From Stutzerimonas kunmingensis (lineage in GTDB: Bacteria > Pseudomonadota > Gammaproteobacteria > Pseudomonadales > Pseudomonadaceae): 64,000 bases of DNA. The stretch's first letter is position 1, and every line of letters begins with the position of its first letter. The translations under genes and the position numbers were made by a program. The notes under the pieces were generated by a model, which worked only from the letters and a program-made list of their open reading frames with translations, ran no database searches and had not been told where the DNA came from. Of this stretch, positions 54,344 through 60,988 are shown one piece after another. The DNA is taken from the NCBI RefSeq assembly GCF_014764705.1, contig NZ_JACXXG010000005.1:62001-126000 (forward strand), in the 5' to 3' direction.

Positions 54344-54964
54344 ATGCAGAATGAACCTCGTAAGGTCCGCGAATTTCGTCGCCGCGAACAGGAAATCCTC
54401 GATACCGCGTTGCAGCTTTTTCTCGACCAGGGAGAGGACAGCGTTACTGTCGAGATGATTGCCGATGCGGTCGGTATCGGCAAAGGCACGATCTACAAGC
54501 ACTTCAAGTCCAAGGCCGAAATCTACCTGCGGCTGATGCTGGACTACGAGCGCGACCTGAACCAGATCCTCCACTCTCCCGACCTGGACCGCGACAAGGA
54601 AGCGCTTTCGCGCGCCTACTTCGAGTTCCGCATGCGCGACCCGCAGCGCTATCGGCTGTTCGACCGCCTCGAGGAGAAAGTGGTCAAGGGCAATCAGGTG
54701 CCGGAAATGGTCGAGCAGCTGCACAGCATCCGCGCCTCCAACTTCGAACATCTGACCCAGTTGATCAAAGGCCGTATTGCCGAAGGCAAGCTGGAAGACG
54801 TGCCGCCGTATTTCCACTATTGCGCCGCCTGGGCGCTGGTGCATGGTGCGGTGGCGCTGTACCACTCGCCGTTCTGGAGCAACGTGCTGGAAGATCAGGA
54901 CGGCTTCTTCCAGTTCCTCATGGATATCGGCGTACGCATGGGCAACAAGCGCAAGCGTGACTGA
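54344..54964 (+). CDS. TetR family transcriptional regulator
   Basis: A 206-residue TetR protein. The helix-turn-helix lies at about residues 28-58 (VTVEMIADAVGIGKGTIYKHFKSK, written here as the family pattern VxxIADxxGIGKGTIYKHFxSK). The ligand-binding half is helical with the WALVHGAVALYHS segment. I prefer the ATG at 54344 (MQNEPRKVREF). An earlier ATG at 54308 overlaps a likely -10 CATAAT (54304-54309) and so is less likely. Targets are unknown; the divergent aminotransferase or the downstream radical SAM gene are candidates. Confidence 0.88.
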   Translation: MQNEPRKVREFRRREQEILDTALQLFLDQGEDSVTVEMIADAVGIGKGTIYKHFKSKAEIYLRLMLDYERDLNQILHSPDLDRDKEALSRAYFEFRMRDPQRYRLFDRLEEKVVKGNQVPEMVEQLHSIRASNFEHLTQLIKGRIAEGKLEDVPPYFHYCAAWALVHGAVALYHSPFWSNVLEDQDGFFQFLMDIGVRMGNKRKRD

Positions 54965-57323: not shown

Positions 57324-58979
57324 TTACATGTTGGGGTAGTTCGGTCCGCCGGTACCTTCGGGCGCGACCCAGGTGATGTTCTGCGCCGGGTCCTTGATGT
57401 CGCAGGTCTTGCAGTGCACGCAGTTCTGCGCGTTGATCTGGAAGCGCTTGCTGCCATCGTCGTTGCTCACGACCTCGTAAACGCCGGCCGGGCAGTAACG
57501 CTGTGCCGGTTCGTCGTACATCGGCAGGTTCTTTTCGATCGGAATGCTCGGGTCGGTCAGTTTCAAGTGAACCGGCTGCTCTTCCTCGTGGTTGGTATTG
57601 GAGAGGAATACCGAGGAGAGCTTGTCGAAGCTCAGCTTGCCGTCCGGCTTGGGGTAGTCGATTTTCTTCGACTCTGCAGCCGTCTTGAGACAGGCGTAGT
57701 CCGGCTTGGTGTCGTGCAGGGTGAAGGGGATCTTGCCACCGAAGATGTTCTGATCGATGAAGTTGAACGCGCCACCCTTGATTGCGCCCCACTTGTGAAT
57801 GGCAGCGCCGAAGTTGCGGCTCTTGTATAGCTCGTCGTACAGCCAGCTGGACTTGAAGCCCTCTTCGTACGCGGTCAGTTCGTCGCCACCTTCGCGTCCG
57901 GCCAGCAGTGCGTCCGCAGCGGCTTCGGCAGCCAGCATGCCGGACTTCATCGCCGTGTGGCTGCCCTTGATCTTGGCGAAGTTCAGGGTGCCGGCGTCGC
58001 AGCCGATCAGTGCACCGCCATTGAATACCATTTTCGGCAGGCAGTTGATGCCGCCCTTGGCGATCGCACGTGCGCCATAGGAAACGCGCTTGCCGCCTTC
58101 CAGGTACTGCTTGATCACCGGATGGTGCTTGTAGCGCTGGAATTCGTCGAACGGCGACAGATACGGGTTGCTGTACGACAGGTCGACGATCAGGCCGACG
58201 ACCACCTGATTGTTTTCCAGGTGATAAAGGAAGGAGCCGCCGGTGTTTTCGTCGTTCAGCGGCCAGCCCGCGGTGTGTACCACCAGGCCCTGCTCGTGCT
58301 TGGCCGGATCGATGTCCCACAGTTCCTTGATGCCGATGGCGTAGTGCTGCGGGTCGACGTTGGCGTTGAGCTGGAAGCGGTTGATCAGCTGCTTGCCGAT
58401 ATGACCGCGGCAGCCTTCGGCGAACAGCGTGTACTTGGCGCGCAGCTCCATGCCTGGCGTGTACATGCCTTCCTTCGGATTGCCTTCGCGGTCGACGCCA
58501 AGGTCACCGGTGACGATACCGCGCACGACGCCGTTTTCGTCGATCAGCGCTTCCTGAGCGGCGAAGCCTGGGTAGATCTCGACACCCAGGTTCTCGGCCT
58601 GCTGGGCCAGCCAGCGGCACAGGTTGCCGAGGGAAATGATGTAGTTGCCTTCGTTGTGCATGGTCTTGGGGACCAGTGCATTGGGCAGCTTGCTGGCGGC
58701 TTCGGCGGTCTTGAGCAGGTAGATGTCGTCACGCTTGACCGGCGTATTGAGCGGGGCGCCGAGCTCTTTCCAGTCAGGGAACAGCTCATTCAGTGCGCGC
58801 GGCTCGAAGACTGCGCCGGATAGAATATGGGCGCCTACTTCGGAGCCTTTCTCAACGACGCATACACTGATTTCTTGACCAGCGTCGGCGGCTTTCTGCT
58901 TCAGGCGGCAGGCTGCGGATAGGCCTGCAGGGCCGGCGCCGACGATGACAACGTCGAATTCCATGTATTCGCGTTCCAT
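57324..58979 (-). CDS. electron transfer flavoprotein-ubiquinone oxidoreductase
   Basis: A 551-residue ETF-QO (EtfD/FixC-like), which passes electrons from reduced ETF to ubiquinone at the inner membrane during fatty-acid and amino-acid oxidation. The FAD motif VGAGPAGLSAACRL is at about residues 13-26. The 4Fe-4S cluster cysteines lie near the C-terminus (YCPAGVYEV, NCVHCKTCDIKDP). AGGAGA lies 9 bases before the ATG at 58979, and an internal ATG at 58964 is possible. It is divergent from etfBA, with a shared control region. Confidence 0.96.
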   Translation of the reverse strand: MEREYMEFDVVIVGAGPAGLSAACRLKQKAADAGQEISVCVVEKGSEVGAHILSGAVFEPRALNELFPDWKELGAPLNTPVKRDDIYLLKTAEAASKLPNALVPKTMHNEGNYIISLGNLCRWLAQQAENLGVEIYPGFAAQEALIDENGVVRGIVTGDLGVDREGNPKEGMYTPGMELRAKYTLFAEGCRGHIGKQLINRFQLNANVDPQHYAIGIKELWDIDPAKHEQGLVVHTAGWPLNDENTGGSFLYHLENNQVVVGLIVDLSYSNPYLSPFDEFQRYKHHPVIKQYLEGGKRVSYGARAIAKGGINCLPKMVFNGGALIGCDAGTLNFAKIKGSHTAMKSGMLAAEAAADALLAGREGGDELTAYEEGFKSSWLYDELYKSRNFGAAIHKWGAIKGGAFNFIDQNIFGGKIPFTLHDTKPDYACLKTAAESKKIDYPKPDGKLSFDKLSSVFLSNTNHEEEQPVHLKLTDPSIPIEKNLPMYDEPAQRYCPAGVYEVVSNDDGSKRFQINAQNCVHCKTCDIKDPAQNITWVAPEGTGGPNYPNM

Positions 58980-59060: not shown

Positions 59061-59089
59061 ATTATATATAGACGCTCGAATCGGTCCAA
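59061..59089 (-). promoter_or_regulatory. promoter of the ETF-QO gene
   Basis: On the minus strand, TTGGAC (59089-59084) and a perfect TATAAT (59066-59061) with 17-bp spacing. The -35 lies 3 bp from the putative operator at 59092-59105. Confidence 0.7.
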
Positions 59090-59091
59090 TA

Positions 59092-59105
59092 CAAACGTTT
59101 GTTTG
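59092..59105. promoter_or_regulatory. PsrA-like operator between ETF-QO and etfBA promoters
   Basis: CAAAC (59092-59096), GTTT spacer, GTTTG (59101-59105). This matches the published P. aeruginosa PsrA consensus, (G/C)AAAC-N2-4-GTTTG(G/C), as I recall it. The left part is also a perfect 12-bp palindrome ACAAACGTTTGT (59091-59102). It overlaps or abuts the -35 regions of both divergent promoters, the usual place for a repressor. Confidence 0.7.
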
Positions 59106-59129
59106 AATTTTCTGGAAGCCTGTTAGAAT
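59103..59129 (+). promoter_or_regulatory. putative promoter of etfBA
   Basis: TTGAAT (59103-59108) and TAGAAT (59124-59129) with 15-bp spacing; a 17-bp alternative -35 (GTTTGA, 59101-59106) overlaps the operator. The leader to etfB would be about 170 nt, in which I see nothing further. Confidence 0.55.
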
Positions 59130-59308
59130 CGCCCGAACCGCGTCGTTATGACGGGTCATATGCGTTGTTGACCCCGTCCGCGGCCTGCGGTCAAGATACG
59201 GACGGTTTGCACTCGCCGAACAGGGCAGCGGCTATCAAAACCCAAGCCACGAGCAAGGCTCGGTTCGCCTCGGCGGAATTCTATTCACCGGAGAGTAACG
59301 AGGAATCC

Positions 59309-60058
59309 ATGAAGGTTCTTGTAGCTGTCAAACGAGTGGTCGATTACAACGTCAAGGTTCGCGTCAAGGCGGACAATTCGGGCGTTGACCTCGCCAACGT
59401 CAAGATGTCGATGAACCCCTTCTGCGAAATTGCCGTGGAAGAAGCCGTACGCCTGAAAGAGAAGGGCGTGGCGAGCGAAATCGTTGTCGTCTCCATCGGT
59501 CCGACCGCTGCCCAGGAGCAGCTGCGCACCGCGCTGGCGCTGGGCGCCGACCGCGCCGTGCTGGTCGAGTCCAACGACGAACTGAACTCCCTGGCTGTCG
59601 CCAAGCTGCTCAAGGCCGTGGTCGACAAGGAGCAGCCGCAGCTGGTCATTCTCGGCAAGCAGGCGATCGACAGCGACAACAACCAGACCGGGCAGATGCT
59701 CGGTGCACTGACTGGCTATGCCCAGGGCACCTTCGCCTCCAAGGTGGAAGTGGCTGGCGACAAGGTCAACGTGACCCGCGAAATCGACGGCGGCCTGCAG
59801 ACCGTCGCGCTCAGCCTGCCGGCGATCGTCACCACGGACCTGCGTCTGAACGAGCCGCGCTACGCGTCGCTGCCGAACATCATGAAGGCCAAGAAGAAGC
59901 CGCTGGAAACGCTGACTCCAGATGCGCTGGGCGTCACCATCACGTCTACCGTGAAGACCCTGAAAGTCGAAGCGCCGGCTGCCCGCAGCGCCGGTATCAA
60001 GGTCAAGTCCGTGGCTGAACTGGTCGAGAAACTGAAGAACGAGGCGAAGGTACTCTAA
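59309..60058 (+). CDS. etfB: electron transfer flavoprotein subunit beta
   Basis: A 249-residue ETF beta subunit that binds AMP and accepts electrons from acyl-CoA and other dehydrogenases. It begins [20 protein letters not shown] and has [29 protein letters not shown] and the ETF-beta signature in the [20 protein letters not shown] region. The ATG at 59309 has GAGGAA upstream; the open frame extends 70 codons further without support. It abuts etfA. Confidence 0.97.
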
Positions 60059-60988
60059 ATGACTATCCTGGTTATCGCTGAACACAATAATGCCGTCCTC
60101 GCGGCCGCTACCCTGAACACCGTTGCCGCCGCCAAGGCCATTGGTGGCGACATCCACGTACTGGTAGCCGGCAGTGGCTGCGGTGCTATCGGTGAAGCAG
60201 CCGCGCAGATCGAAGGCGTGGCCAAGGTATTGGTCGCTGACGACGCGGCTTACGCCAATCAGCTGCCGGAAAACGTCGCGCCGCTGATCGCCCGCCTGGC
60301 GAAGAACTACAGCCACGTGCTGGCTGCAGCGACCACCAATGGCAAGAACTTCCTGCCGCGCGTTGCTGCTCAACTGGATGTCGATCAGATCTCCGAGATC
60401 ATCGCTGTGGAAAGCGCCGATACCTTCAAGCGCCCGATCTATGCCGGTAACGCCATCGCTACCGTGCAGTCCAGCGCTGCCATCAAGGTCATCACCGTGC
60501 GTGCCACCGGCTTCGATGCCGTGAATGCCACCGGCGGTTCGGCTGCGGTCGAGCAGGTCTCAGGCGCTGGCGATGCTGGCAAGTCGGCTTTCGTTGGCGA
60601 AGAGCTGGCCAAGTCGGATCGCCCCGAGCTTACCGCTGCCAAGATCGTCGTTTCCGGCGGTCGTGGCATGCAAAACGGCGAGAACTTCAAGCACCTGTAC
60701 TCGCTGGCCGACAAGCTCGGCGCGGCTGTTGGTGCCTCCCGTGCCGCGGTCGATGCCGGCTTCGTGCCGAACGACATGCAGGTCGGCCAGACCGGCAAGA
60801 TCGTTGCACCGCAGCTGTACATCGCGGTGGGTATCTCCGGTGCCATCCAGCACCTGGCAGGCATGAAGGACTCCAAGGTGATCGTCGCGATCAACAAGGA
60901 CGAGGAAGCGCCGATCTTCCAGGTTGCCGACTACGGCCTGGTGGGCGACCTGTTCGAGATCGTGCCGGAGCTGGAAAAGCTCGTCTGA
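60059..60988 (+). CDS. etfA: electron transfer flavoprotein subunit alpha
   Basis: A 309-residue ETF alpha subunit that binds the FAD. The FAD-binding C-terminal domain is clear: [50 protein letters not shown] and [17 protein letters not shown]. The ATG follows the etfB stop directly. A strong terminator closes the unit. Confidence 0.98.

Follow-up and report, generated by a model that had tools for sequence, protein, structure and literature searches.

A predicted PsrA operator shared by the divergent ETF-QO and etfBA units of Stutzerimonas kunmingensis, with a putative second etfBA promoter outside it

A link between PsrA and the ETF genes has been known since 2005. According to a 2026 review (PMC13104628) citing Kojic et al. 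2005, PsrA of Pseudomonas aeruginosa controls PA2952-PA2951 (etfBA) negatively and PA2953, the ETF-QO gene, positively, and a passage of PMC7641640 that cites the same work describes the Etf genes as negatively regulated by PsrA. PsrA originally came to light through its activation of rpoS (PMC13104628); its consensus has been described at fadE1, and free long-chain fatty acids bind and release P. aeruginosa PsrA (PMC11890623). PsrA regulons have also been derived by comparison (PMC5343134 and PMC3223726), in the available main text of which the etf genes are not named. The site described here is an ordinary orthologous case of this control: regulator family, genes and class of site (G/CAAAC-N2-4-GTTTG/C) are the same as in P. 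aeruginosa, the likeness being one of description and not of operator sequence.

The window, i.e. the whole 64-kb stretch of S. kunmingensis DNA analysed, contains the ETF-QO gene and etfBA as divergent neighbours of the motif, as the Pfam domains from which ETF-QO, etfB and etfA were named bear out (Table 1). The intergenic region between ETF-QO and etfB is 330 bp long, and the nearest named locus is that of Stutzerimonas zhaodongensis (95% identity in ETF-QO). RNA structure in the etfB leader was unsupported (z-score 0.18), and two Rfam matches were both under their gathering scores and outside the intergenic region.

Table 1. Genes, predicted promoter boxes and repeats around the ETF-QO/etfB intergenic region, numbered by position in the window
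Feature	Positions	Strand	Basis or remark
TetR-family gene, likely PvrA (PA2957) orthologue	54344-54964	+	TetR_N
ETF-ubiquinone oxidoreductase (ETF-QO) gene	57324-58979	-	Pfam PF05187, PF21162
ETF-QO promoter, -10 box TATAAT	59061-59066	-	Consensus scan
ETF-QO promoter, -35 box TTGGAC, 17-bp spacer	59084-59089	-	2 bp from operator
12-bp palindrome ACAAACGTTTGT	59091-59102		Present and perfect; judged incidental
PsrA operator (predicted), CAAAC-GTTT-GTTTG	59092-59105		Sequence; conserved arms; motif also at psrA, an acyl-CoA dehydrogenase gene and rpoS
etfBA promoter P1, -35-like box TTGAAT, 15-bp spacer	59103-59108	+	3-bp overlap with operator
P1, -10 box TAGAAT	59124-59129	+	TAnnnT offset count
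Second etfBA promoter P2, -35 box TTGACC	59168-59173	+	Family pattern matches
Inverted repeat TTGACC-N15-GGTCAA, speculative PvrA site	59168-59194		Overlaps P2
P2, -10 box CAAGAT, 18-bp spacer	59192-59197	+	Box scores, family pattern
etfB	59309-60058	+	Pfam PF01012; ATG at 59309 preceded by GAGG
etfA	60059-60988	+	Pfam PF01012, PF00766

The 14-mer CAAACGTTTGTTTG matches CAAAC-N4-GTTTG exactly, as had been claimed for this site, and agrees with the PsrA palindrome G/CAAAC-N2-4-GTTTG/C at 10 of 10 positions. It is the sole exact match in the window, where 0.08 were expected; at least one exact motif appeared in 8 of 100 dinucleotide shuffles of the window, and a perfect one in 1 of 5000 dinucleotide shuffles of the intergenic region. 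With one mismatch allowed, the window holds 3 matches (1.44 expected). Genome-wide, the exact motif occurs at 8 sites, compared with 3 for the reversed pattern, and the relaxed form SAAAC-N4-GTTTS at 16, compared with 12. Since the exact motif is only mildly enriched in the genome, the argument is borne by the place of the site and its conservation. On this footing, CAAACGTTTGTTTG is very probably a PsrA binding site.

Judged by sequence, the genome encodes one PsrA orthologue. A single protein carries PF17939 (2.2e-28), and its best PDB match (6e-119 over 228 residues) is 2fbq, an entry titled probable transcriptional regulator, which we take to be P. aeruginosa PsrA; against the NCBIfam PsrA model the protein scored 232 bits, under the cut-off of 300. 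Four of the eight exact genomic sites are located at genes of a kind known as PsrA targets. The psrA promoter has tandem sites, GAAACGTAAGTTTC and CAAACAGTTGTTTG, which overlap and lie 13 bp apart, and the same overlapping tandem with the same distance is found upstream of an acyl-CoA dehydrogenase gene (L005); these sites fit the consensus described for the psrA and fadE1 operators of Pseudomonas (PMC13104628, PMC11890623), whereas the ETF site is single. Another exact site (L003:3423) is located within nlpD, 420 bp upstream of rpoS, which fits PsrA as a regulator of rpoS, and fadB (L126) has two 9-of-10 sites upstream, again 13 bp apart. Three exact sites (in L006, L007 and L008) are inside open frames. 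The psrA upstream regions of relatives contained a perfect motif in 14 of 30 cases and one with at least 9 of 10 positions in 21 of 30; in a second set, 23 of 30 had a site of at least 9/10. Two further sites are worth noting: an exact one (L004:3539) upstream of an OprD-family porin gene, possibly a further PsrA target, and CAAACAACTGTTTC (L121:2513), about 170 bp upstream of the gene for a transhydrogenase alpha subunit.

Conservation of the operator was assessed at 44 divergent ETF-QO/etfB loci, these being the named loci, from 80, in which a divergent ETF-QO gene lay within the available stretch (the other 36 were omitted). The perfect motif was present in 28 and a motif of at least 9/10 in 37, with shuffle means of 0.1 and 2.7, respectively. 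Comparison of orthologous intergenic regions, the check proposed with the original prediction, found the exact 14-mer in all 15 close divergent Pseudomonas/Stutzerimonas loci; its flanks, CAATA and GAA, are also kept in the 14 aligned close loci (the alignment and the spacing table omit L017, nearly identical to L018). Divergent regions outside the family had a perfect site in 13 of 29 and a site of at least 9/10 in 22 of 29, with various spacers. Anywhere in the genome, the 14-mer occurs in 305 of 398 family genomes (the reversed pattern in 6) and, within the genus, in 53 of 56, the present genome included; two of the three genomes lacking it are 71-73% complete and the third (G229) carries CAAACGTTCGTTTG. 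Where the position of a family 14-mer site was read, 43 of 45 were 73-76 bp from P2; L144 and L147, among the loci fetched by the 14-mer, have no P2 near the site and were taken as other places. Together with the PsrA orthologue, the close loci and the regions beyond the family support a PsrA-type operator common to both ETF units, and the regulation described for P. aeruginosa very probably holds, as far as sequences can tell, across much of Pseudomonadaceae and several other gammaproteobacterial genera.

Exact arms were found in 65 of 91 distinct divergent regions, with 12 different spacers, the sites always starting with C and ending with G; since the 14-mer had served to pick 30 loci (L137-L166), and its absence to pick 26 of 27 further genomes, neither this proportion nor the 56 operator-bearing regions among 63 in the family is a frequency, the less biased figures being 305/398 family genomes and 28/44 loci. 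No site of at least 9/10 was found in seven of the 44 loci (L045, L049, L052, L060, L065, L073 and L074); PF17939 was lacking only in the genome of L074, and its match was weaker in that of L045. Several genomes thus have PsrA and no etf operator. In one genus (g5), PF17939 was found in 8/8 genomes searched, each with a site of at least 9/10 at psrA, and no operator was found in the three divergent etf regions read (L181, L192 and L193), nor the 14-mer in any of 37 genomes. These cases indicate that control of ETF by PsrA can be lost. The three g5 regions keep P2, and in L181 and L193 the -10 region of ETF-QO can be made out by eye. Co-occurrence of PsrA and operator was dropped as proof, since PF17939 was present in 42 of 43 genomes (the L082 genome left out) and offered too little contrast.

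The motif had been described as lying between back-to-back promoters. Boxes are present on both strands, the limits originally drawn (59061 and 59129) being the ends of two -10-like boxes on opposite strands, but the consensus promoter scan found only the minus-strand ETF-QO promoter and neither P1 nor P2. The scores in the window are 10.9 for the ETF-QO promoter, 9.6 for P1 and 6.9 for P2. In the family, a distance of 25 bp separates the ETF-QO -10 box and the operator in 48 of the 56 operator-bearing regions. On the plus strand, 29 of these 56 show TAnnnT at an offset of 31-33 from the operator, other offsets having a mean of 0.87 and a largest count of 8, and the P1 -10 box is clear in these 29 only. 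In L041, L058 and L085, too, the edge of the operator holds a TTGA box that is accompanied by a plus-strand -10-like box. The P2 pattern is present in all 56 operator-bearing regions and in the 7 other family regions (63/63), although one of the seven counted as lacking the operator, L182, has a 9-of-10 site. The distance from operator start to P2 is 74 bp in 44 of the 56 and 76 bp in the window, and 15 named family loci that were not selected by motif have operator and P2 together in 15/15. Outside the family, a P2-like promoter (slightly looser pattern) was found in only 7 of 29 regions. In the P. fluorescens-type leaders L016, L020 and L022, the stretch between P2 and the etfB start is about 170 bp longer, with the operator-P2 spacing unchanged.

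We hold it highly likely that the 14-mer constitutes one PsrA operator, with P1 repressed, the ETF-QO promoter under control of either sign and P2 independent of PsrA. Motif, conserved arms, spacings, PsrA orthologue and P2 boxes are read directly; from them we infer binding, ligand, promoter use and sign as follows, with transcription starts placed from promoter boxes alone. PsrA, as a dimer carrying no long-chain fatty acid, would occupy the operator, where it would cover the P1 -35 region, thereby repressing P1, and abut the -35 box of ETF-QO. At the latter promoter its centre would be at about -44.5, a position from which either repression or activation is possible. Long-chain fatty acids would release PsrA, and ETF output would shift together with the other PsrA targets, while P2 would keep etfBA expressed without PsrA, as would suit an ETF that also serves amino-acid oxidation.

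By analogy with P. aeruginosa, the sign of PsrA control may differ between etfBA and the ETF-QO gene. The original prediction had assumed one repressor for both units, which is at odds with the account of the review, where etfBA is repressed and the ETF-QO gene activated (PMC13104628). Nor did control of the whole ETF branch from one site hold up: the predicted P2 lies outside the operator and, in the family regions read, is kept even where the operator is absent. Its presence near the operator suggests that PsrA does not control everything, and a second etfBA promoter would limit how much PsrA alone controls. The prediction is thus partly supported, right on the site and the regulator and too strong on control of the whole branch.

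The same observations bear on a narrower possibility, in which the operator acts chiefly on ETF-QO, and etfBA is run by P2 and hardly affected by PsrA. The presence of the P2 pattern in every family region read, with or without the operator, speaks for it, as does the ETF-QO promoter, which has the top score in the window and was the sole find of the consensus scan. However, i) in P. aeruginosa, according to the review, PsrA acts negatively on etfBA, ii) P1-like -10 boxes recur at a set distance from the operator much more often than background would give, iii) P1 outscores P2 in the window, iv) the operator-edge TTGA box of L041, L058 and L085 is likewise paired with a -10-like box on the plus strand, and v) beyond the family, more regions have the operator than a P2-like promoter. 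We therefore regard an operator acting mainly on ETF-QO as unlikely, and prefer a PsrA operator acting on both units.

The perfect 12-bp palindrome that had been pointed out, ACAAACGTTTGT, is indeed present, but the importance given to it was not borne out. Some relatives, with CAAACGTTCGTTTG or CAAACGCTCGTTTG for example, have intact N4 arms and a disrupted palindrome; as the arms are constant and the spacer drifts, the functional unit would be the PsrA operator and the inner palindrome incidental, the latter being ruled out as a functional unit by this drift. Comparison thus fixes the true operator as the N4 arms. Binding of the palindrome by another TetR regulator, such as the product of the gene at 54344-54964, has in its favour the perfection of the palindrome and a distance of about 4 kb between that gene and the operator. 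This product matched PDB chain 7w2o_C (407 bits; entry titled probable transcriptional regulator) and is likely the orthologue of PvrA (PA2957; PMC10805311), whose published half-sites are CGGTCA/TGACCG (PMC13415123). Moreover, the motif is kept in Marinobacter and Colwellia loci whose genomes are without a close relative of this TetR protein. With the palindrome broken and the PsrA arms kept in relatives, the neighbouring regulator was rejected as binder of the 14-mer, and such a reading is very improbable. A chance match, or plain conservation of -35 sequence, for which the modest genomic excess of eight exact sites over three could be adduced, is hardly credible against 28 perfect sites in 44 loci, where shuffles gave a mean of 0.1, and a perfect site, with varied spacers, in 13 of the 29 regions from beyond the family.

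PvrA is a palmitoyl-CoA-responsive TetR regulator and a sensor of long-chain acyl-CoA. The inverted repeat overlapping P2, TTGACC-N15-GGTCAA, is the sole copy in the window (0.01 expected) and one of 4 in the genome, compared with 1 for the reversed pattern; the shorter TGACC-N13-17-GGTCA has 67 genomic sites, compared with 27. Of the 63 family regions, 50 have TGACC together with GGTCA, and 31 have both complete half-sites, TGACCG and CGGTCA. This dyad resembles the published PvrA sites in its half-sites (the motif is given as GGTCA in PMC11890623) and in having a likely PvrA gene nearby, and differs from them in that its half-sites in the window are TGACCC and CGGTCA, with TGACCC in place of TGACCG on the left, and that TTGACC doubles as a -35 box. 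Among the matches listed, the literature contained no passage linking PvrA to etfBA, which is not proof of absence; PMC11890623 mentions both, but in its available text not together in one passage. A relative of the TetR protein (84-95% identity) is present in 15/15 close genomes, all of which also have the dyad. In seven more distant genomes with a TetR relative (52-59% identity) the dyad shows 2-4 mismatches, and L065, without a close TetR relative, has a dyad with just 1 mismatch. The extended dyad TTGACC-N13-16-GGTCAAGATA is found in 238 of 398 family genomes but, within the genus, in no more than 20 of 56, and the nearest relative (L029) has AGTCAA at this place.

Control of P2 by PvrA is speculative. 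The region might join two fatty-acid sensors, PsrA on the one hand, acting at P1 and at the promoter of ETF-QO, and PvrA on the other, acting at the dyad over the operator-independent P2, a reading that we put forward tentatively and consider doubtful, weakened as it is by the scarcity of the extended dyad in the genus and by distant genomes that have a PvrA relative without the dyad. If true, ETF supply would follow both arrival and activation of the substrate, and opposite signs of control on the two units would be possible.

Between the ETF units of L058, L066, L069 and L077, which comprise Colwellia loci and a MAG of the Alteromonadaceae, there are two operators 19 bp apart; in L077, one of the two matches at 9 of 10 positions.
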